Assembly (NCBI RefSeq): GCF_014279975.1
Contig: NZ_CP047936.1
Location: forward strand, 1 to 64,000
Source of the DNA: Synechococcus sp. BIOS-U3-1
GTDB lineage: Bacteria; Cyanobacteriota; Cyanobacteriia; PCC-6307; Cyanobiaceae
Reading direction: 5' to 3'
DNA: 64,000 bases
Shown here: positions 42,231-53,538 of the stretch, in pieces
How the letters are laid out: each line of letters opens with the position of its first letter
How positions within the stretch are numbered: the first letter of the stretch is position 1
The notes under the pieces: generated by a model
The model's input: only the letters and a program-made list of their open reading frames with translations
The model's database searches: none
Told to the model about the DNA's origin: nothing
Program-made: the position numbers and the translations under genes

Positions 42231-42302
42231 AGCGGGTGACCGGATTTGAACCGGCGACGTTCAGCTTGGGAAGCTGACATTCTACCACTGAATTACACCC
42301 GC
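42231..42302 (-). tRNA. tRNA-Gly (anticodon CCC)
   Basis: The 72-base cloverleaf reads on the minus strand: acceptor GCGGGTG pairing with CACCCGC, D arm ATTC/GAAT, anticodon arm TCAGC-TTCCCAA-GCTGA, T arm GCCGG-TTCAAAT-CCGGT (first pair G-T), discriminator T. Loop positions 34-36 are CCC, reading GGG glycine codons. CCA is not encoded. It lies 54 bases from the aminotransferase gene; no mobile element is attached here. Confidence 0.95.
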
Positions 42303-44785: not shown

Positions 44786-46372
44786 ATGTCCCAGGTTCCG
44801 ATTGAAGGTCAGCGTCAGCCGGCCATCGTCATTCTTGATTTCGGCTCCCAGTACTCCGAACTGATTGCTCGTCGGGTGCGCGAGACCGAGGTGTTCTCCG
44901 TGGTGCTGGGCTACAGCACCTCTGTTGAAGAGCTACGCAAATTGGCGCCCAAGGGGATCATCCTCAGCGGCGGTCCAAGTTCGGTGTACGCCGATGGCGC
45001 GCCTCTCTGCGATCCACAGATCTGGTCGATGGGGATTCCGGTTCTTGGCGTCTGTTACGGCATGCAGCTGATGGTGCAGCAGCTGGGCGGACGTGTTGTG
45101 GCAGCGACCGGTAAAGCCGAGTACGGCAAAGCACCGCTCGAGGTGGACGACCCCACGGACTTGCTCACCAATGTGGACAACGGCTCCACGATGTGGATGA
45201 GTCATGGGGATTCCGTTGAGGCCCTGCCGGAGGGCTTCGTGCGTCTTGCTCATACGGCCAATACCCCTGAGGCGGCCGTCGCTCACCATCAGCGCCAGTT
45301 GTATGGGGTGCAGTTCCATCCCGAGGTGGTGCATTCCACCTGCGGTATGGCGATGATCCGCAATTTCGTCTATCACATTTGTGGCTGCGAGCCTGACTGG
45401 ACGACAGCAACATTCATTGAGGAAGCCGTCAAGCAGATTCGCGATCAGGTGGGCGAGAAGAGGGTGTTGCTGGCTCTCTCAGGTGGCGTGGATTCCTCAA
45501 CCCTGGCCTTTCTGCTTAAGAAGGCCATTGGTGATCAGCTCACCTGCATGTTCATTGATCAGGGCTTCATGCGGAAGGGCGAGCCTGAATTCCTGATGGA
45601 CTTCTTCGACCGCAAGTTCAACATTCACGTTGAGTACATCAAGGCCCGGCAACGATTCCTGACCAAGCTCAAGGACGTCACGGATCCCGAGCAGAAGCGC
45701 AAGATCATCGGTACCGAATTCATTCGTGTGTTTGAAGAGGAGAGCAATCGCCTCGGTCCTTTTGATTACCTGGCCCAGGGCACGCTGTATCCCGATGTGA
45801 TCGAGAGTGCCGGAACGAATGTCGATCCCAAGACCGGTGAGCGGGTGGCTGTGAAGATCAAGAGCCACCACAACGTGGGTGGTCTTCCCAAGGATCTTCA
45901 GTTTAAGTTGGTGGAACCGCTGCGCAAGTTGTTCAAAGACGAAGTGCGCAAAGTCGGTCGCTCGCTCGGACTGCCTGAGGAGATTGTGCGTCGTCATCCC
46001 TTCCCGGGTCCGGGTCTGGCGATTCGCATCCTTGGTGAAGTCACAGCGGAGAAACTTGATTGCCTGCGTGATGCTGACCTGATCGTGCGTGAAGAGGTGA
46101 AGGAGGCCGGTCTGTATCACGACATCTGGCAGGCCTTCGCGGTTCTGTTGCCTGTGCGGTCGGTTGGGGTCATGGGTGACAAGCGCACCTATGCCTGGCC
46201 GATTGTGCTCCGCTGCGTGTCCAGTGAAGACGGCATGACCGCTGACTGGTCGCGATTGCCTTACGACCTGATGGAGACGATTTCCAATCGCATTGTGAAT
46301 GAGGTGAAAGGTGTGAATCGTGTGGTTTTAGACATCACCAGCAAACCGCCTGGCACGATTGAGTGGGAATAA
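44786..46372 (+). CDS. guaA: GMP synthase (glutamine-hydrolysing)
   Basis: This amidates XMP to GMP. The 528-residue protein has the amidotransferase domain with GGPSSVY, the nucleophile Cys in LGVCYGMQL near residue 88 and QFHPEVVHS near 180. The ATP-pyrophosphatase loop [14 protein letters not shown] is near 230, and the dimerisation domain ends IEWE. The last codons and stop form part of an 18-bp direct repeat (46358-46375) that bounds the adjacent element, so guaA is the insertion site and its coding end is intact. Confidence 0.98.
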
Positions 46373-46375
46373 TTC
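46358..46375 (+). repeat. attL: attL: 18-bp direct repeat at guaA 3' end
   Basis: ATTGAGTGGGAATAATTC is identical to 53392-53409. It encodes IEWE plus stop of guaA. A near-inverted copy of its left part (TCCCACACTCAA at 46393-46404) lies 17 bases further in, as might be expected for core-type recombinase sites. Confidence 0.93.
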
Positions 46376-46411
46376 TGGGGTACAAACCTCAGTCCCACAC
46401 TCAAAAATGGC

Positions 46412-46492
46412 GTTTCACGTGAGTTTCACGTAGGGTTCTTCTGTAGGCGTGACAGGGCATCTCGCTTGCTCTGTTTCACGTCGGTTTCACGT
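46412..46492 (+). repeat. Two pairs of GTTTCACGT direct repeats (putative integrase arm sites)
   Basis: GTTTCACGT occurs exactly at 46412, 46423, 46473 and 46484. Each pair has an 11-base period, about one helical turn. They sit between attL and the integrase gene, where arm-type integrase binding sites are expected. Only a near match (ATTTCACGT) occurs at the 3' end of the integrase gene. Confidence 0.65.
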
Positions 46493-46506
46493 GTCACCTT
46501 GTCACC
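46492..46506 (-). promoter_or_regulatory. RGTGAC-N3-GTGACA site 1
   Basis: On the minus strand this reads GGTGACAAGGTGACA, identical to site 2. It lies 86 bases before the Cys-rich mini-gene and overlaps the last base of the fourth GTTTCACGT. Confidence 0.75.
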
Positions 46507-46591
46507 TTCTCCATAGAGAAGTCGTACGGCAATAGCTTTCTCTACGAATGCTCCCTCAACGCCAGAAGCAGAAGAACGCTTTTCGGGTGCT

Positions 46592-46726
46592 GTGAGCAGC
46601 AGGAACCAGTTCGTCTGTCCCACGTGCGGGAAGGTTCCAGATCGGGTTCTTACTGAGGACGGACGCCCACATCAGTACTCGTTGAAGGTGCTACCACGGC
46701 ACAAGCAGGAGTGCTGTGCGAAGTAG
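46592..46726 (+). CDS. 44-aa Cys/His-rich mini-protein
   Basis: This GTG-started frame encodes MSSRNQFVCPTCGKVPDRV, continuing to a C-terminus with HKQECCAK. CPTC plus a later His/Cys/Cys cluster suggests a single zinc-binding unit. The frame overlaps the integrase start by 11 bases, suggesting coupled translation. It is too short for usual gene finding. I do not recognise it; a DNA- or protein-binding accessory (excisionase-like or antirepressor) role is only a guess. Confidence 0.5.
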   Translation: MSSRNQFVCPTCGKVPDRVLTEDGRPHQYSLKVLPRHKQECCAK

Positions 46727-48092
46727 GGGGGATAACAACAAGCAGTCATACGCCCTGTACGAAGAGTTGAAGCACTTACGGGTGGCACCAGAAGCGGGCA
46801 CCCCGTACATCTACAAGCGTCTGGATACTCAGGTTCATCTGCCCGTTGAAGAACGTGCGTGGCAGATACGTGTCCCAGTACCAAGCACCAAAGGCGTCAG
46901 GAAGTCCTTGAAGGTGACTGAGAAGGCGGATGCCATCTCCAAAGCAGAGGAGATGGTGCTGGAACTGAGGGTTCAGTTGAAGCAGGGCGTTGGTGTGATG
47001 CCTACTCCCGTTGAAAGCGTGGTGGAGAAGTTCCTTGAAACCAAACGTGCTCTGGTGCGTGACGCTTGGGAAAGCAAGGAAGACAGGGGACGCAAAAGCA
47101 TCACAGAGGAGAGGTATGGACTGATTGCTGGAAAACTCAGGAACTACCTCACACCCTTTTTGGGAGCGAAGACGGATGCTCGCAACATCCCCTATCGCAC
47201 TTGGAATGACTGGCAGGCGTGGAGGATAAAGAACAACACCAGAGCGCCTAAGCGCCCAAAGGCAATCACCATCCAAAACGAGATGGGAATGATTAGGGAG
47301 TGCTGGAAATGGGCGATGGAGAACGGGTACGTGCCGTTCTCACCCAAACTGCCGTTCCAGAACGAGAACCTCATTACCGACGACAAGGTGAAGAGGGAAA
47401 CGTGGGAGGCACACGAATGGAGTTCCTTCGCTCGTTTGGTTCGGGAATGGTTGAACGCTCAGTACGAAGGAACAGAGGAACACCTGTGGGACTGCTGGAT
47501 TTCGTACCAGATGCTTTTCTTCCTTGCGAACTGCGGGATGCGTGTTGGGGAACTGGTGAAGGTGAAGCGTAAGGACGTTCAGTTCTATCAACTTCAAGAA
47601 CGTGCTGACGAATGGATGAACGGGAAAATCTGCTGCTTAGTCCAAGTCCATCCATCAACCAAGACAGGTGCTCGTGAAGTGAATGCGATGGGTGGTGATT
47701 TTGCCAAGAGGGCGTGGGAGAAGTCCAAGTACAAGGAAAAAGATGATTTCTTGTTCTGTCATTTGGATGGAACTCCCTTCACTACAAGTCAGTTCATGAA
47801 AAAGTTTGAAAAGATGACTGCTTTTACGAATGAGGATGAACGATGGGGCAAGCACTTCGTTCCTTATTCGCTTAGACACCTGTACGCAACGACACGACTT
47901 CAACACGGCACATCACGTACCGCTCTTTGTGAAAATATGGGTGTGACAGAAACCTACCTCAGGAAACATTATTCCAAGTACCTAACCCGACTTGCTACTG
48001 CTGATTTGATGAAGATGGATAAGGATATTGGTTTGGGTGGCAAAATCATTTCACGTGGGAATGACTTCGCTATTCCTGAGGTGACGGAGTGA
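46716..48092 (+). CDS. int: Tyrosine integrase (site-specific recombinase)
   Basis: The 458-residue recombinase probably integrates and excises the element. Catalytic residues appear in order: Arg in NCGMRVGELVK near 275, Lys in HPSTKTGA near 312, RH in YSLRHLYATTRL near 386 and the Tyr in TYLRKHYSKYL near 418; the first His of HxxRH is Tyr, as in many phage integrases. An N-terminal SAM-like core-binding segment is near residues 95-190. GTG start at 46716 overlaps the mini-gene. A direct-repeat site (site 7) spans the stop. Confidence 0.93.
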   Translation: MRSRGDNNKQSYALYEELKHLRVAPEAGTPYIYKRLDTQVHLPVEERAWQIRVPVPSTKGVRKSLKVTEKADAISKAEEMVLELRVQLKQGVGVMPTPVESVVEKFLETKRALVRDAWESKEDRGRKSITEERYGLIAGKLRNYLTPFLGAKTDARNIPYRTWNDWQAWRIKNNTRAPKRPKAITIQNEMGMIRECWKWAMENGYVPFSPKLPFQNENLITDDKVKRETWEAHEWSSFARLVREWLNAQYEGTEEHLWDCWISYQMLFFLANCGMRVGELVKVKRKDVQFYQLQERADEWMNGKICCLVQVHPSTKTGAREVNAMGGDFAKRAWEKSKYKEKDDFLFCHLDGTPFTTSQFMKKFEKMTAFTNEDERWGKHFVPYSLRHLYATTRLQHGTSRTALCENMGVTETYLRKHYSKYLTRLATADLMKMDKDIGLGGKIISRGNDFAIPEVTE

Positions 48093-48094
48093 CA
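48080..48094 (+). promoter_or_regulatory. RGTGAC-N3-GTGACA site 7
   Basis: GGTGACGGAGTGACA, overlapping the integrase stop codon and the edge of the terminator for the facing operon. Confidence 0.6.
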
Positions 48095-48138
48095 TAAAAA
48101 AAGAGGGCAGGGGAAACTAATGAAAATCCCTGCCCTCT
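48095..48138 (-). terminator. Rho-independent terminator of the minus-strand operon
   Basis: An 11-bp perfect stem (48102-48112 with 48128-48138; AGAGGGCAGGG) is followed, in the minus direction, by seven T residues. It ends the rep-operon transcripts just before the integrase 3' end; there is no T-tract for the plus direction. Confidence 0.93.
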
Positions 48139-48140
48139 CT

Positions 48141-48377
48141 CTAAAACTCCTGCTGTGGTGGTGGTGAGTGTTGTACCTCTACTCCTTGCGCCATCGTTTT
48201 TGCTCTCGGTTCTGGTAGTAAAACCGAAGTGCTTCCTCCAAGACGAGTTCCTTTTTGTTGCGGAACTTGCTGCTGTCCTTGCGAAGGATAGTTTGTAGCA
48301 TCCCGCTTACTTCGTCTCCTAACTTTGCGCTTACGTACATCATCACGAAACTGCTTGAAGGTTTTCTTTTCTTCCAT
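48141..48377 (-). CDS. Basic 78-aa protein, unknown
   Basis: MEEKKTFKQFRDDVRKRKVR and the following RRRSKRD are very basic, followed by a Gln/Pro-rich tail. ATG at 48377 is chosen over an extension to 48446. It overlaps the RHH-like gene by 35 bases and sits directly before the terminator. It could bind nucleic acid; no family is recognised. Confidence 0.5.
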   Translation of the reverse strand: MEEKKTFKQFRDDVRKRKVRRRSKRDATNYPSQGQQQVPQQKGTRLGGSTSVLLPEPRAKTMAQGVEVQHSPPPQQEF

Positions 48378-48510
48378 ACTGCTCCCTAATCTTATTCTTG
48401 AACCAAGCAGAGCGAGAGAGGTAATCCTTCTTCCTACCTTCATCAAGCAGGTTTAGAAGTTCAACCTCGTCTCTGCCAAATGAAAGACAGATTGTAGTGT
48501 TGCTTCTCAT
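48343..48510 (-). CDS. 55-aa ribbon-helix-helix-like protein
   Basis: The frame starts MRSNTTICLSFGRDEVELLN, continues through a basic turn and ends KIREQYGRKENLQAVS. A short strand (TICLSF) followed by two helices fits a MetJ/Arc or MobC-like RHH fold, although this is a visual guess. Its upstream region (48511-48546) contains one of the 15-bp repeat sites (site 2), so it might be the autoregulator. It was missed by length-based gene calling. Confidence 0.5.
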   Translation of the reverse strand: MRSNTTICLSFGRDEVELLNLLDEGRKKDYLSRSAWFKNKIREQYGRKENLQAVS

Positions 48511-48531
48511 AATAGTATTACTCCTTATTTG

Positions 48532-48546
48532 GGTGACAAGGTGACA
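48532..48546 (+). promoter_or_regulatory. RGTGAC-N3-GTGACA site 2
   Basis: GGTGACAAGGTGACA, identical to site 1 in inverse orientation. It lies 22 bases upstream of the RHH-like start, just beyond the 68-aa gene's stop. Confidence 0.75.
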
Positions 48547-48753
48547 TCATTCTATACCGAATAGTTTATTCATATTGGAGAAAAACTCTCGCTCTTCTTC
48601 CTTCAATAGTTCCTTCTTGTAGTATCCTATCTGTTCTTTTATGTATGTGATACATTCATAATCTTCGGGTTCTGTTTCGTCAAGTTCAAGCAACTTGTCG
48701 TAGAAGAAGTTTAGTTTCTCTTGTATGGTTTCCTTCTTGTTTTTATCTCCCAT
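48547..48753 (-). CDS. Charged 68-aa helical protein, unknown
   Basis: The protein is largely Lys/Glu-rich helix (for example KKETIQEKLNFFYDKLLELD near the N-terminus). Its ATG at 48753 overlaps the rep-like stop by 11 bases, indicating translational coupling. I do not recognise the family; it resembles accessory proteins of plasmids and phage satellites only in general style. Confidence 0.6.
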   Translation of the reverse strand: MGDKNKKETIQEKLNFFYDKLLELDETEPEDYECITYIKEQIGYYKKELLKEEEREFFSNMNKLFGIE

Positions 48754-49351
48754 TTGTTAGTTCTCCTAAATCGCTGTTTTCGTAATCAAGGTGCTGCCAC
48801 TTGTCAAAATCTACGGATGATAATGACTTATTGACGTAGTGTAATCGGTACTTGATGTTTCCTATGCTTCTCCAATCAACACTTTGCTTTCCATAACCAA
48901 GTTTGCGGATATAGCGTTGGAGATGATTAGTAAGTGCTTCTGTCATTACATCGTCCATAGAGAAATCTCTGGCAACGATGTCAAACAGAGTACGTTTGTT
49001 GATTGTAATCTTTCTGTTGTTCTTACTCAACCAACTTAGTCCATCCATGCCTTCCATAAAGATATGAAGATGTAGTGCTCCTGAGGAATGAGGTTCAGTA
49101 AAAAACCATAATCTAATCCTGTTATTCGGTTTTCTATTGGGATAGAAGAAATCAAGAATAACCTTCTTGATGTGTTGATTATCAAGGTACTGGTTCAGTA
49201 CGTTTCTTTGTTGATAGGTGAATGACAGAGTTAGGAAGTACCTGAACTTTATGTTTAGAGTTTCAATCTTCCTCTCCAACCATTCTTCTGTTATTACTCT
49301 CTTAGAGTTTCTACTCTCGTACAAGTGACGAGGTGACAAATCAGTTGCCAT
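48743..49351 (-). CDS. rep: HUH endonuclease-like replication initiator
   Basis: The 202-residue protein has the three motifs of rolling-circle Rep/HUH enzymes in order: motif I FLTLSF (residues 39-44), motif II with H94-L-H96 in GALHLHIFMEG, and motif III Y172-V-N-K175. Length and spacing fit a minimal Rep without a helicase domain. A palindrome-rich AT region (49352-49414) lies directly upstream and repeat site 3 overlaps its 5' end. It could replicate an excised circle or be a relaxase-like protein. The gene is visibly AT-richer than its host. Confidence 0.65.
   Translation of the reverse strand: MATDLSPRHLYESRNSKRVITEEWLERKIETLNIKFRYFLTLSFTYQQRNVLNQYLDNQHIKKVILDFFYPNRKPNNRIRLWFFTEPHSSGALHLHIFMEGMDGLSWLSKNNRKITINKRTLFDIVARDFSMDDVMTEALTNHLQRYIRKLGYGKQSVDWRSIGNIKYRLHYVNKSLSSVDFDKWQHLDYENSDLGELTNGR
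49324..49338 (+). promoter_or_regulatory. RGTGAC-N3-GTGACA site 3
   Basis: AGTGACGAGGTGACA, inside the first codons of the rep-like gene, so a bound protein could block its transcription. Confidence 0.7.
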
Positions 49352-49414
49352 AACTTACATTTCATTTGAACTTGTATGTCTGCTTCCGTTACATACATTT
49401 TATATATGTAAGTT
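49352..49414. repeat. Nested inverted repeats upstream of rep (candidate replication origin)
   Basis: A 9-bp inverted repeat AACTTACAT (49352-49360)/ATGTAAGTT (49406-49414) flanks an AT-rich interval. Inside it TTACATA (49389-49395) pairs with TATGTAA (49405-49411). Such structures suit a nicking origin or an operator; function is inferred only from position before a Rep-like gene. The rest of the 210-base gap to 49561 holds site 4 (49495-49509) and nothing else I can name. Confidence 0.45.
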
Positions 49415-49494
49415 ATTGTCTATACAGATGTTTTTGTTAGTATTCTGTAACAAAACCCGATAATATGCTGCCTTACTCAACAACGAAGGAGGTT

Positions 49495-49509
49495 TGTCAC
49501 GTTGTCACT
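49495..49509 (-). promoter_or_regulatory. RGTGAC-N3-GTGACA site 4
   Basis: On the minus strand AGTGACAACGTGACA, in the gap between the 317-aa gene and rep, about 145 bases before the rep start. Confidence 0.7.
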
Positions 49510-49561
49510 TCAAAGAGATAAACAACGCAACTATATTTTTTAGTACCTTTGTTATTGTTCG

Positions 49562-50515
49562 CTAAATGAAACCAATCTGTTTCAGCAGAGTGTTGTTCCA
49601 TACTGCCAACTCCCTTCTTTCTGCCACAACGCTTTCCAGTCGTCGTTTCAGGTTGAAGCGTTGTGCTCTGTCTTCTGTCTTGTCCATCAGGTAGTTCAGT
49701 TTCGCTACGTACGCCTGTCCGTGCTTCTCCCAGAACTCCTTCTTCCCTCCATCAGCGTTGATGAGGAACCCCGTGAAGGAGCGAAGAGGTGTCTCGTGTA
49801 GTTCTCCAATCGTTTTCAGGTTGAACTGCTTCTTCACCTCCTCTGGCATCCCCTTGAACCATTTGGATGTCAGTTCTCGTTCCAGTACCCCTCGCCAGAA
49901 CACCTCTCGTTCTGCTCGCTCCTGCTGCTTCAACGTTCTGGTGCCATCTGTGTTGGCAACCCTCAGCACCACCCCGTATTCCTCACACGCCCTCCTGAGC
50001 GCCTCTTGAAGCGATTGGAGTTGCTCTGCCCCTAATGCCACCTCCTCTGGGCGATACACGCCGTAGAGGTGCTCCTGCTTCGTTCCCCAACGTCCTTTCT
50101 CTCCGTCTGCTGCTGCCAGAGCAGGGAACCTCACCTGCTTCGTGTAGTCCTTTGCCGTACGTACGGACATAGAAGGTGTGATGGCACCGCTACGTGCTCC
50201 TGTCACCAGTTCCTCTGCCGATAGAGAGCAGAGAACGTGAATGGTGGAGTACGAGGCAGGTAGTTGCTTCACGACATCTCTACGTTCCTTCTCTTGGAGG
50301 GACAGAAGTGTTTTCCCAACCACCTTCAACTTGGAAAACACCTTGTCTCCTATGCCCGTCTGCTCTGCGTAGAGACGAAATGTTGATGTATCCAGTCGGT
50401 TAGATGCTTCGGCAATCCCAAGTGACAGGGTGACAATCTGCTCTGCCGAACCGCTGTAAGGGTTCTCAGCGACAAAGCGTTGGAACGTTTCCATCGCAGC
50501 AACGATGTCTGTCAC
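49562..50515 (-). CDS. 317-aa protein of unknown function, possible DNA-binding
   Basis: No family is recognised with confidence. A stretch LPASYSTIHVLCSLSAEELV, followed by a segment ending MSVRTAKDYTKQV (about residues 85-130), resembles helix-turn-helix-type regions in KorB/ParB-like or DUF3102-like phage and plasmid proteins. The rest is charged helix ending in RLESVVAERRELAVWNN. The GTG start lies within repeat site 6, and site 5 lies in its first 30 codons, so it could be autoregulated. GC content looks closer to the host than the rep operon does. Confidence 0.6.
   Translation of the reverse strand: MTDIVAAMETFQRFVAENPYSGSAEQIVTLSLGIAEASNRLDTSTFRLYAEQTGIGDKVFSKLKVVGKTLLSLQEKERRDVVKQLPASYSTIHVLCSLSAEELVTGARSGAITPSMSVRTAKDYTKQVRFPALAAADGEKGRWGTKQEHLYGVYRPEEVALGAEQLQSLQEALRRACEEYGVVLRVANTDGTRTLKQQERAEREVFWRGVLERELTSKWFKGMPEEVKKQFNLKTIGELHETPLRSFTGFLINADGGKKEFWEKHGQAYVAKLNYLMDKTEDRAQRFNLKRRLESVVAERRELAVWNNTLLKQIGFI
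50421..50435 (+). promoter_or_regulatory. RGTGAC-N3-GTGACA site 5
   Basis: AGTGACAGGGTGACA, within the early codons of the 317-aa gene. Confidence 0.65.
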
Positions 50516-50524
50516 ACTGTCACC
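50510..50524 (-). promoter_or_regulatory. RGTGAC-N3-GTGACA site 6
   Basis: On the minus strand GGTGACAGTGTGACA; the second GTGAC provides the GTG start codon of the 317-aa gene. Confidence 0.7.
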
Positions 50525-50549
50525 CCTGCTCCCGACACACCATACACTC

Positions 50550-50623
50550 GCGTAGAGAAATCGTAGAGAAGAAGTTCCGTGAGGTGGTGTCCCTTTTTAC
50601 GACACAGCGTAGAGAAATCGTAG
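50550..50623 (+). repeat. Pair of 17-bp direct repeats with internal CGTAG-N6-CGTAG
   Basis: GCGTAGAGAAATCGTAG occurs at 50550-50566 and 50607-50623. Each copy contains CGTAG twice at an 11-base spacing. A one-base-different form (CCGTAGAGAAGTCGTAG) occurs in inverse orientation at 53208-53224, before the serine recombinase. The rest of 50516-50747, between the divergent 317-aa and cargo genes, shows only a short CCGA/TCGG hairpin near 50700. A regulatory role is likely but unproven. Confidence 0.55.
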
Positions 50624-50747
50624 GATAATACAGGGGTAATCAGGCGAGGGGAAACCTGATGCTTCTAACAAGTTGTTTAACGGTGCCTCTCAACGACCGA
50701 AATCAGTCGGTAGATGATTACAGTAAAGTTACATTTAATTTTGAGAA

Positions 50748-52070
50748 ATGTTTAGGGTCGAATATAAATATTCTGCCTGCATCAAGATCGTCACTGATGA
50801 CGTAAGAATTCTTTGCGATCCTTGGTTTGGAGGCGGTGCATATTCTGGGACTTGGCATCAATTCCCACCCGTAAAAAACAAGATGGGATTAATAGGCGAC
50901 TTCGACGTAATTTATATCAGTCACATTCATCCGGATCATTATTGTAGCGAAACCATTGCGGAATTATTATCCCATTATGGAAACAAAAATATTTTGGTGG
51001 TGGATTGGGGAGAGCATCCAAATTACCTCGCCAAAAAAATTGCGTCGGACGGATTTGGAGATAATCTAACAATCTCAAATGAAGTAACTTTTGGCGATAC
51101 ATCTGTTAAGATTTTACCAAACAGAACCGGTTCTGCTTCGGATATTGATAGCGCATTGATTGTTTCCTCTAAGAAATCAAAAAAAGCAGTCCTAAATGTA
51201 AATGATTGCATTTACAACGACTCTTTTTATGGAAAAATCAATGACGTTAAGATTCAAGATGGTCTTGAGTTCACATTGTTTTGCTTGGGTTACACAGGCG
51301 CTGGACCTTACCCGCAAACCTATTACTCTCCAATCCTTGATGAGAGGAAAATGCTTGACTTGGCGAATAAGAAAAAACAGCAATTTTTTGATAGGTATCT
51401 CAAAGCAATATCCAAAATTGAAAGCGTAAAGAGACTCCCCTTCGCTGGGAAATACGTCTTAAAAGGCGATCTTGCCATTCTTAATCAATATCGCGGTGTG
51501 GCAGATGCTCTTGAAGTCAAGCAAATTGACAAAGATGCCATAGTTCTTGATGACGGAGGGGATTCATATTTTGATCTTGAAAGCATCAAGTGTTCCTCTG
51601 AAAGACAAGACAGATATCCCCCAGTCAATTCCCTTCCTTCGGACAATGATTACGATTGGCGTACCAATGTAGGATTTACTCCGAATCCTACGCTTTTAAA
51701 GCGTCTTCTTTATAAGAGTGTCTCCAACGCCCACCCGCGCTCGGAATGCGACCAAGATTATTTATGGTCTATATACGCTTATGATTCGCCCTCTTTTATT
51801 GTTGACTTGTGGTCGCATCAAGAACCTTGGCGACTTATTGAACCGCTGATAACCTTTAACTGCAACAAGAATTCAGATGCTCGAGTGATAGCAACCGAAC
51901 CTGCGTGTCATTCTCATTTATTCATAGAAAGCAAAGCACTGTTTGCAGTTCTTACTGGCGTCTCGCATTGGAATAACTATGAGGTTGGTTCAGTCTTTCA
52001 AGTGAGAAGAGTGCCCGATATCTATGTGGGCGAGATGCAGAGATATCTGAATTTTCTCAGCGTTATCTAA
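50748..52070 (+). CDS. Metallo-beta-lactamase-fold hydrolase (cargo gene)
   Basis: The 440-residue protein has the MBL metal motif HxHxDH as SHIHPDHYCSE near residue 60, and LGYTGAGPYPQTYYSP near 180, a pattern I associate with UlaG/CMP-sialic-acid-hydroxylase-like MBL proteins. The C-terminal ~170 residues hold a separate domain with no clear match. Such proteins occur in surface-sugar loci, but here it stands alone. It is AT-rich, unlike the host. Its start has no strong Shine-Dalgarno. Function is unknown. Confidence 0.75.
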   Translation: MFRVEYKYSACIKIVTDDVRILCDPWFGGGAYSGTWHQFPPVKNKMGLIGDFDVIYISHIHPDHYCSETIAELLSHYGNKNILVVDWGEHPNYLAKKIASDGFGDNLTISNEVTFGDTSVKILPNRTGSASDIDSALIVSSKKSKKAVLNVNDCIYNDSFYGKINDVKIQDGLEFTLFCLGYTGAGPYPQTYYSPILDERKMLDLANKKKQQFFDRYLKAISKIESVKRLPFAGKYVLKGDLAILNQYRGVADALEVKQIDKDAIVLDDGGDSYFDLESIKCSSERQDRYPPVNSLPSDNDYDWRTNVGFTPNPTLLKRLLYKSVSNAHPRSECDQDYLWSIYAYDSPSFIVDLWSHQEPWRLIEPLITFNCNKNSDARVIATEPACHSHLFIESKALFAVLTGVSHWNNYEVGSVFQVRRVPDIYVGEMQRYLNFLSVI

Positions 52071-52103
52071 TGATTAAAGTTTAAGGCAGGTTTTCAGAGA
52101 CTG

Positions 52104-52182
52104 AGTTAGTCCATTGTAGTTGTGCGCTTAATTTCTTTTTCTTTTCGTCTGGTAATCGACGCAGTTAGTGGATTGTAATTGT
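52104..52182 (+). repeat. Near-identical 20-mer pair downstream of the cargo gene
   Basis: AGTTAGTCCATTGTAGTTGT (52104-52123) and AGTTAGTGGATTGTAATTGT (52163-52182) differ at three bases. They lie in the 207-base gap after the MBL gene. Function is unknown; no terminator hairpin is obvious in this gap. Confidence 0.45.
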
Positions 52183-52277
52183 ATTGCTGTGCCTGAACGA
52201 ATATGTTTGACGTGTTTCCTTTGGTCGCACCTGTGCTCGTAAGTGATGCGAATAAATGGTGATCTTGTAGTCATTAT

Positions 52278-52445
52278 TTAAGGTGGTGATTGATTGTGGT
52301 TTCGTCGTTTTGCTTCGTGAGTCTTCTTGTTTAAGCGATTTGCACGTTGTTCGGCAGTTCTGTAAGCATTCGGTTCGTGATGTTGTTCTTGGAACCTGTA
52401 CCAATCGCCAAACTGATTTTGCCATTCAATAATCACCTTAGTCAT
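52278..52445 (-). CDS. 55-aa phage-type small protein
   Basis: The frame MTKVIIEWQNQFGDWYRFQE continues to a basic C-terminus. The IEWQNQFG...YRTAEQRA pattern resembles small proteins I recall from cyanophages and Prochlorococcus. Its ATG lies one base after the serine recombinase stop, so the two are probably co-transcribed. Function is unknown. Confidence 0.6.
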   Translation of the reverse strand: MTKVIIEWQNQFGDWYRFQEQHHEPNAYRTAEQRANRLNKKTHEAKRRNHNQSPP

Positions 52446-52446
52446 T

Positions 52447-53109
52447 TCAGGAAACCTCCAAAGTAGTAAGCATTCTTGAAACCAGAGATGGATGAAAACT
52501 CCCTCCACGACTGGTTTTCATCCCACTTGCGTTCAATACTTCGCAGATGTTCCTAAGCGTTGCTCCTTGCTTTCTTAGAGGCAGGATGACGCCAGAGAAC
52601 TGCTGCGCTTCTCTACGTGCTTTTGCCTGACGTGCTTTCGCCAGAGCATCAAGGTGCTGCTTTGGCGCACCAAGTTTGGTTCCTCTCTCCTTCGCTGCTC
52701 GTAGTGCTGACTTCGTTCTCTGGGAGATGAAATCCCGTTCTTGCTCTGCCAAGCAGGCATAGATGTGGAGTTGAAACTTGTCTGCGTGAGGCATCTGGGC
52801 GACTTTGAAGTCCAGCGCCCTGTCCTCCATCAGCGAAGCGATGAAGGAGACACGACGGGACAACCTATCCAGTTTGGAAACGACGAGAACTGCCTTCTCT
52901 CGCTTCGCCAAAGCGATGGCAGCGTTCAACAGGGGACGTTCGTTGTCCTTGCCTGAATGAACCTCCACAAAACGCTCCACAACGCCGTAGGGAGTTTCTG
53001 CGTAGTTCTCCAAGAAGAGTTGGATGTCCCGCTCTTGCGCCTCTAAACCCAATCCGCTCTTGCCCTGTTCTGCCGAACTGACACGTAGATAGAGCACGTA
53101 CTTCCGCAT
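52447..53109 (-). CDS. Serine recombinase (resolvase/invertase family)
   Basis: The 220-residue protein begins MRKYVLYLRVSSAEQGKSG, with the nucleophile Ser11 after Arg9. KLDRLSRRVSF near residue 68 supplies the second active-site Arg set. A C-terminal helix-turn-helix is near residues 180-215 (ATLRNICEVLNASGMKTS). It is resolvase/invertase-sized, not a large integrase. ATG at 53109 is chosen; the frame continues to 53208 without family support. It is the last gene before the right repeat and could resolve multimers or invert DNA. Confidence 0.92.
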   Translation of the reverse strand: MRKYVLYLRVSSAEQGKSGLGLEAQERDIQLFLENYAETPYGVVERFVEVHSGKDNERPLLNAAIALAKREKAVLVVSKLDRLSRRVSFIASLMEDRALDFKVAQMPHADKFQLHIYACLAEQERDFISQRTKSALRAAKERGTKLGAPKQHLDALAKARQAKARREAQQFSGVILPLRKQGATLRNICEVLNASGMKTSRGGSFHPSLVSRMLTTLEVS

Positions 53110-53391
53110 AAACCTTTCTGTCCTGCTTTGAAACGCTCGTTTGACGCAGAACAAGCGCGACTTATCTACGTAGAAAAGTTTGTAACAAGATGGCAAGCGC
53201 GCACTCACTACGACTTCTCTACGGAGAGATGCCTAGAGTAAATGGAGGAAGGGCGGTATCTGAGGGATGCTTTCTCTACAAGGTTTCGTAGCAAACACCT
53301 TTCGCCCAAACACGTTTCTATGAAAGGGTTTCACTTGGTAAAATTGTCGCTGAAACCGCTTGGCAGGACTAAAACCTTGTTGAGTACCTGT
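53110..53391. other. Right end of the element, no gene recognised
   Basis: This stretch should hold the promoter of the serine recombinase. It contains the inverse CGTAG repeat (53208-53224), a further related segment with TCTCTACAAGG near 53271 and an imperfect GTTTCACTT near 53326. No convincing coding frame is seen on either strand. Confidence 0.5.
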
Positions 53392-53409
53392 ATTGAGTGG
53401 GAATAATTC
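53392..53409 (+). repeat. attR: attR: 18-bp direct repeat
   Basis: ATTGAGTGGGAATAATTC is identical to attL. It would encode the end of guaA (IEWE stop), so it regenerates guaA's end if the element excises. Sequence after it resumes host-like composition. Confidence 0.93.
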
Positions 53410-53538
53410 AGGATTGAAAGATAGAACTCGCTGGCTAATGAGACATAGTTGTTTTAAATGACTGGCCAAATCTCTTTAACTTTTCGAGAGCAGTGGCTCA
53501 CTTCTGAGTCAGACATTGCGTTGATTTGATTCTTTTTA

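Follow-up and report, generated by a model that had tools for sequence, protein, structure and literature searches.

MetJ binds tandem 8-bp met boxes, which are palindromic, with adjacent ribbon-helix-helix (RHH) dimers. In mobile DNA, the RHH protein CopG represses the rep operon of the rolling-circle plasmid pMV158 (PMC5703833), the RHH-type ParB protein omega of pSM19035 binds contiguous 7-bp repeats, at least four of which are needed to activate ParA fully (PMC9499535), and KorB of RK2 is a single plasmid-encoded global regulator with operators near and far from promoters (PMC11790492). For the tycheposons, integrative elements of Prochlorococcus, a paper citing them gives tRNA genes as their borders (PMC10872708). 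Here we analysed the first 64,000 nucleotides of contig NZ_CP047936.1 from Synechococcus sp. BIOS-U3-1 (in the following the window), which contain a 7-kb insertion, from 46361 to 53412, flanked on either side by a copy of the guaA 3' end. This element encodes a tyrosine integrase (Int), a HUH replication initiator (Rep), two small RHH-like proteins (RHH1 and RHH2) and the 317-aa protein p317, and it carries seven copies of a 15-bp site built from two GTGAC boxes. With moderate confidence we regard these sites as a dispersed operator set of the mobile element itself, with RHH1 as the likeliest binder and rep as the probable object of control.

As in the CopG-repB system of pMV158 (PMC5703833), a small protein, here RHH-like, is encoded with a rolling-circle Rep and a putative operator lies at the rep operon, but here the element is integrated, RHH1 is located downstream of rep whereas copG is upstream of repB, the site recurs 7–10 times over the whole element and the RHH1 fold is a predicted one. 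Omega of pSM19035 is similar in being an RHH-type protein on short tandem boxes, as is predicted for RHH1; unlike its heptads the boxes described here have an 8-bp period, mostly number two in a site, and at most three in the TTAAC islands described below, and are dispersed, and no ParA gene was noticed in the window element, although no search was aimed at ParA. MetJ differs in being a chromosomal metabolic regulator with palindromic boxes and shares with our proposal the tandem 8-bp boxes and the side-by-side dimers. The tycheposons are likewise picocyanobacterial integrative elements with tyrosine recombinases, but in contrast to the tRNA borders of the citing description the ends of our element are copies of the guaA 3' end, and the only tRNA found in the window is a tRNA-Gly at 42231. 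By analogy, CopG and omega may serve as precedents for the type of protein and KorB for operators both near and far.

A preliminary description of the window, made from the sequence alone, had listed seven RGTGAC-N3-GTGACA sites, and all of them match exactly in position and strand (Table 1), including the two identical 15-mers at 46492(-) and 48532(+). The 8-base spacing of the GTGAC units is strict, as RTGAC pairs occur seven times at a gap of 3 in the element and not once at gaps of 0–2 and 4–10, and the gene contexts originally assigned (integrase end, upstream of the RHH-like gene, rep start and start codon of the 317-aa gene) are correct. The same description had supposed the chromosome to be free of such sites, with a genome-wide count suggested as the check. 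In this count GTGACNNNGTGACA (GTGAC-N3-GTGACA) was found eight times in the 2.71-Mb genome, seven times in the element between 46492 and 50524, which bears out a near-absence elsewhere, and we take the eighth match at 775116 as chance. Allowing one mismatch adds three GTGAC-N3-GTGAC-like places in the window, every one outside the element. The looser pattern RTGACNNNRTGACA gives 10 matches in this genome, 7 of them in the element, and comparable fractions in related genomes (8 of 9 in G011, 7 of 8 in G294, 6 of 6 in G512); none of the four matches in G312 lies in the element and G260 has no match at all, because the boxes of these two lack the trailing A. Many copies confined to the element are what characterizes a dispersed operator set of a mobile element.

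Relatives were collected by searches with Rep, which matched 8 of 400 family genomes, and with p317, which matched 27 of 400 family genomes, 6 of 31 of the genus and 4 of 266, 1 of 1, 5 of 34 and 1 of 25 in further searches. These sets overlap, some include the genome of the window, and all are samples, in which islands longer than the stretches fetched may carry further genes. Six loci of relatives include Synechococcus sp. AG-679-A04 and Prochlorococcus sp. AG-409-O23 and AG-402-M15, which points to marine picocyanobacteria as hosts. In two of the six loci (L026 and L027) the contigs that encode the p317 relatives bear the label of a gammaproteobacterial metagenome-assembled genome (CPC27), which may reflect either mis-binning or a wider host range. 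With the window we compared ten loci in which guaA stands beside the element (L017–L021, L040, L043–L045 and L069; L020 is truncated where its contig stops, and for L069, whose right end is not fixed, 8 kb were taken). Inside these elements RTGAC-N3-RTGAC occurs ten times in L017 and seven times each in the window, L019, L020, L021 and L044, once each in L018 and L043, and not in L045, L040 or L069, at shuffle means of 0.035–0.11 across the elements and 0.035–0.10 in the six site-bearing ones. RTGAC pairs at other gaps are rare (two in L017, one each in L019, L020, L018 and L043, none in the others). The flanks contain no site in 10 of 11 cases tested, including those of all six site-bearing elements; the sole flank match, beside L045, lies ~140 bp inside a neighbouring element remnant. 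A remnant at L045 13203 retains its att-proximal site. L042, L043, L045, L069, L072, L073 and L075–L080 showed no conspicuous tandem set, a weak test in which one mismatch gave up to 9 copies at gap 3 but up to 25 at other gaps, and a CAGCA set in L040 was discarded as it is mostly one short tandem repeat.

Not only the number of the sites but also their arrangement is conserved. Measured in integrase-forward coordinates, 32 of the 45 sites of the six site-bearing elements fall on shared anchors, and the orientation is constant at each anchor. The rep-start site is found 20–59 bp into the longest open reading frame (ORF), except in L044 (119 bp), where the true start is uncertain, the site beyond the p317 stop 8–85 bp from it and the one within p317 860–866 bp from the p317 stop; the site at the int stop is followed by an opposite-facing second site in four of the five elements that have it. 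In all six elements the rep-start and p317-stop sites face each other across the rep upstream region and its hairpin. As L019 and L020 are near-identical (p317 98%), the six elements represent five independent lineages. Most sites of the window stand at gene edges, and some lie within coding sequence (rep start, p317 codons), which would be the argument for chance or coding constraint acting on short motifs. For the set in the window, however, the chance expectation is 0.02 and seven copies were reached in 0 of 100 shuffles, six elements have 7–10 sites each against shuffle means of at most 0.1, and positions and orientation are shared although the encoded proteins are 35–65% identical between lineages. 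Shuffles and conservation together already refute this explanation, the probability of which we regard as negligible. A site acting at the RNA level on start or stop codons was rejected because the sites occur in both orientations relative to transcription.

The letters of the boxes differ between elements and tend to do so for the whole set. GTGAC is used throughout in the window (7/7) and in L017 (10/10), ATGAC at 7/7 sites of L044, and A and G are mixed at the first base in L021 and in L019/L020. The p317 codons under the site read IVILSC in L044 and IVTLSL in the window, L017 and L021, and relatives without the site use other codons at that place; these changes point to selection on the DNA. 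In two distant p317-bearing genomes, G147 and G332, the boxes read TTAAC and keep the 8-bp period, frequently in runs of three. All 13 matches of the TTAAC pattern in the 2.6-Mb genome of G147 lie in 2436091–2468456 (backward control 0) and G332 has five on two contigs (backward control 2), while G213, G004 and G126 have none. Both box types have xT[GA]ACA in common, and we infer from these sequence features that the TTAAC islands may belong to the same system as the sites of the guaA elements. Tentatively, we go one step further and suggest that the guaA-integrated rolling-circle elements of picocyanobacteria might rewrite their whole operator set together (GTGAC, ATGAC, TTAAC), keeping the period and many positions and orientations fixed, with a co-evolving RHH protein as the driver; the set would be a repressor regulon plus an origin-flanking silencing complex, and the ~11-bp arm repeats would change likewise. 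A host or helper-phage protein as reader of the sites would profit from the merely candidate status of RHH1 as binder and from the cyanobacterial Pho boxes, which are also 8-bp tandem repeats containing TTAAC. Against such a protein speak the box letters, which differ between elements and are uniform within those of the window, L017 and L044, as well as the host chromosomes with few or no copies, where a host regulator would be expected to have targets, and we consider it very unlikely.

Which of the element's own proteins might bind was approached through co-occurrence. RHH1, sought with a 12-row alignment in 24 genomes, is present in 14 of them and in all eight with a site set (G000, G011, G260, G312, G294, G512, G147 and G332); in the TTAAC genomes the motif was found first and RHH1 then beside further copies of it. 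Eleven genomes have no RHH1 near p317 (ten have none, G193 one ~500 kb away), and no site set was seen in the stretches read of these (4.7–18 kb each). The association has a Fisher p of 0.002, for which it must be considered that the rows are related and not independent, that G098 and G285 are contig ends and that the test for other boxes is weak. L040, the element of G193, encodes the Int (69%) and p317 (64%) closest to those of the window yet lacks Rep, RHH1 and sites, which makes Rep or RHH1 the candidates for the binder and sets aside p317 and Int as first choice. Between the two, the TTAAC islands favour RHH1, which they contain with E values of 4e-18 and 2e-19, whereas the best E for Rep in the stretches read is 0.14. 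The RHH1 model has two helices (15–29 and 33–45), and its listed structural neighbours comprise 11 rows with Z of 3.1–4.5, nine of which we take to be RHH repressors, antitoxins or regulators, e.g. Arc, TacA2 and CdbA. Two other proteins were dropped as binders: the serine recombinase, of which L021 with its seven sites has only a distant relative (26% identity), and a primase-like protein, which has no match in the window.

Several observations weigh against RHH1 and the operator reading. The RHH1 model is of low confidence (predicted local distance difference test score, pLDDT, of 63), a monomer without a strand, and the Z values of its neighbours are small; RHH1 of the window matches no Pfam family, one of five members having a weak unrelated match and none an RHH match, and a profile search of solved structures gave nothing significant (best E 0.89; NikR, an RHH protein, 1.1). 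Five genomes have RHH1 near p317 but few or no sites: G009/L018 (one plus degenerate ones), G492/L043 (one), G519/L045 (none in the element), and G213/L042 and G004/L073 (none seen). Two of these loci, L042 and L073, agree with the TTAAC-type RHH1 in their strand residues but have no TTAAC sites, and no clear code for the box letters emerges from the RHH1 residues proposed to face the DNA. Within the six guaA elements the co-occurrence of Rep with the sites is as good as that of RHH1. L019 (G260) has retained its sites though the RHH1 and Rep frames each contain a stop, RHH1 and p317 of G332 are on different contigs and may thus belong to separate elements, and 13 of the 45 sites match no shared anchor, several being located close to the right end or behind the small gene adjacent to the recombinase.

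Rep itself leads to another explanation, in which the boxes are iterons of the HUH Rep, the hairpin-flanking pair forming the core and the other copies handcuffing or titrating Rep. The Rep assignment agrees with an alignment of five rows in which the HLH and Y-x-N-K columns are invariant. The conserved stretch upstream of rep ends in a hairpin whose AACGGAAG loop is invariant in eight loci (seven distinct sequences). With fixed pairing 83.7% of the cells pair (0 of 500 shuffles), the covariation score is 0.42 (0 of 500), eight cells have two-sided changes (0 of 500) and five of seven pairs show such a change (5 of 500), all of this with columns picked from the sequences themselves, which favours the hairpin score. 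Further pair types are unexceptional (166 of 500 shuffles), and slid controls are lower with 55% of the cells paired at best. Single-sequence DNA folds have z-scores from -2.9 to +1.0, and the support for the hairpin thus comes from covariation and not from energy; in L043 the pattern search found no copy. Beside a HUH Rep, a nick hairpin is a plausible identity. The iteron idea draws on the inverted pair that flanks this hairpin in 6/6 elements, which may give the boxes a role at the origin, and on rep, which each of the six guaA elements with sites contains, in L019 interrupted by a stop. However, only two of the seven sites flank the candidate origin and the rest are dispersed over 4 kb instead of being clustered, no Rep was found in the stretches read of the TTAAC islands (none in L074 or L041), and sites are few or absent in L018, L043 and L045 despite their Rep. 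We therefore hold an iteron function to be unlikely. Of the two possibilities named in the preliminary description, a regulon operator or an iteron set, the first in the form of an element-wide operator set on shared anchors fits best, and a pure iteron set fits less well because of the sites kilobases from rep and the two TTAAC islands.

The third protein to be considered is p317, which could bind the sites and silence or partition the element from dispersed operators, as KorB does on RK2; KorB acts from operators adjoining or far from promoters (PMC11790492). Like RK2 the element combines dispersed operators with a protein predicted to be of ParB type, the p317 gene itself contains two sites, and p317 is encoded in every site-bearing genome, although these genomes were chosen by p317 or Rep. 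In the predicted model (pLDDT 80.9) the N-terminal domain resembles the DNA-binding domains of Spo0J, ParB and Noc with Z of 7.6–7.8 over 109–113 residues, which is within the chance range for helical proteins. The best structural row is the Rubisco factor Raf1 (Z 8.2), Foldseek alone gave no significant E, and a profile search of solved structures returned nothing significant (one match, E 1.2). As for the N-terminal CTPase domain of the ParB/KorB family, the model begins with the helical DNA-binding domain and contains no strands, although no search was aimed at a CTPase motif. The operator of KorB is a 16-bp sequence, and the predicted ParB-type protein described here appears to be paired with another repeat than the GTGAC sites. 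This second repeat, TACGA[CT]TTCTCTAC, is present in 3–8 copies (up to two mismatches) in nine of ten elements tested (L021 0) at shuffle means of 0–0.2, and in the flanks it is absent in six of ten cases (window 1, L021 4, L045 1, L040 1). In the window its form CTACGATTTCTCTACG (46513, 50552, 50609 and 53209) precedes int, p317 (twice) and the serine recombinase and occurs once inside p317. Since the second repeat accompanies p317 with or without GTGAC sites, it is the better candidate for a p317 target; before p317 the repeat TACGATTTCTCTAC is found in relatives with and without sites, and p317 more probably reads this one. Together with L040, whose p317 is closest to that of the window and which has no site, while L017 with a p317 of 52% has ten, this makes a KorB-like control by p317 quite improbable. 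Among the proteins originally named as candidates the RHH-like one is thus favoured and the 317-aa protein disfavoured.

The remaining features of the element are given in Table 1. Repeats similar to the guaA-end copies also bound the relatives. In three Prochlorococcus loci (L021 5921–17473, L044 394–12161 and L045 4876–17916) several guaA-end repeats stand in a row, which looks as if elements had inserted repeatedly at one spot. Beside att, the left ends of the window, L017, L018, L021, L040 and L043–L045 have element-specific direct repeats with a period of ~11 bp, whose letters include GTTTCACGT, CTACCCCG, GTTTGTTGC and GTTTCCCGT; these are probably the arm sites of the integrase, and their letters, too, are altered set by set. 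A reading of GTTTCACGTGA at the left end as parS was dropped because the repeat varies between elements and has the ~11-bp period of integrase arm sites. Next to p317 the window has a gene for a metallo-beta-lactamase-fold protein where L017, L021 and L044 have a primase/helicase-like gene, and thus the former may be cargo that replaced the latter. No relative of Rep, p317 or Int was found in IMG/VR proteins, none of p317 in phages and none of Rep in plasmids, and among the matches listed for guaA, integration and Synechococcus/Prochlorococcus there was no published description of this small integrative element family.

Table 1. Features of the guaA-integrated element (positions refer to the window unless a locus is named).
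Feature	Position	Strand	Remarks
Left end, attachment site (attL-like) copy of guaA 3' end	46361..46378	+	GAGTGGGAATAATTC; direct repeat, 95% over 21 bp with 53392-53412
Four GTTTCACGT repeats, two pairs ~11 bp apart	46412..46492	+	probable integrase arm sites
Site 1	46492..46506	-	GGTGACAAGGTGACA; att-proximal; centre 138-148 bp from att in 5/6 site-bearing elements
44-aa ORF, CxxC, zinc-ribbon-like	46592..46726	+	no Pfam match
Tyrosine integrase (Int), 458 aa	46716..48092	+	PF00589 4e-10; phrog_1 9e-23
Site 2	48080..48094	+	GGTGACGGAGTGACA; overlaps integrase stop codon; at int stop in 5/6
RHH2, second small RHH-like ORF, 55 aa	48179..48346	-	weak; profile finds it in 3 elements only
RHH1, 55 aa, favoured candidate binder	48343..48510	-	co-occurrence and model
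Site 3	48532..48546	+	GGTGACAAGGTGACA; ends ~21 bp before RHH1 ATG; off shared anchors
68-aa ORF	48547..48753	-	no assignment; ORF list, Pfam scan
HUH replication initiator (Rep), 202 aa, LHLH motif	48743..49351	-	PF23343 6.1e-7, above cut-off; relatives
Site 4	49324..49338	+	AGTGACGAGGTGACA; within rep codons 5-10; rep start region in 6/6
Covarying hairpin upstream of rep, candidate replication origin	49364..49412	-	loop AACGGAAGCAG; putative origin role
Hairpin copies in relatives	L017 7677-7725, L018 9585-9638, L044 4193-4240, L045 8654-8701		upstream of HUH rep
Site 5	49495..49509	-	AGTGACAACGTGACA; between p317 stop and rep; 6/6, inverted vs site 4
p317, 317 aa, ParB/Noc-like DNA-binding domain (residues 1-131)	49562..50515	-	predicted model
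Site 6	50421..50435	+	AGTGACAGGGTGACA; within p317 codons V-T-L-S; same codons in 4/6
Site 7	50510..50524	-	GGTGACAGTGTGACA; p317 GTG start codon inside second box; anchor in 2/6
Two copies of second repeat CTACGATTTCTCTACG before p317	50550..50623	-	more copies at 46513-46526 and 53209-53222
Metallo-beta-lactamase-fold protein, 440 aa, possible cargo	50748..52070	+	PF13483 7.7e-7
Serine recombinase, 253 aa	52447..53208	-	PF00239 1.4e-23
Right end, attR-like copy of guaA 3' end	53395..53412	+	direct repeat with left end

In the model that we propose each site would consist of two 8-bp boxes (GTGACNNN) in tandem, each taken by one RHH1 dimer with the two dimers side by side. We infer that RHH1 is an RHH protein that binds the sites and acts as a repressor, that rep and RHH1 form one operon and that the hairpin is the origin used by Rep. 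As the RHH1 gene directly follows rep in the same orientation, RHH1 would repress its own operon through the two sites on either side of the rep start and the candidate origin; in 6/6 elements this pair stands where the rep-RHH1 gene run begins, as would suit such an autoregulation. Repression would keep rolling-circle replication low, in the manner of CopG on plasmid pMV158, and the other copies would extend the control to the integrase, the p317 gene and far operons, so that the integrated element is kept quiet. Because related elements have comparable sets, for the most part at corresponding positions and with small differences in their letters, the site set is probably the element's own switchboard. 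Such element-wide operators with co-changing letters would be a natural series on how a regulator and its sites can shift specificity without breaking control, and searches with the site set may help to uncover this family of small integrative elements in genomes of Synechococcus and Prochlorococcus.

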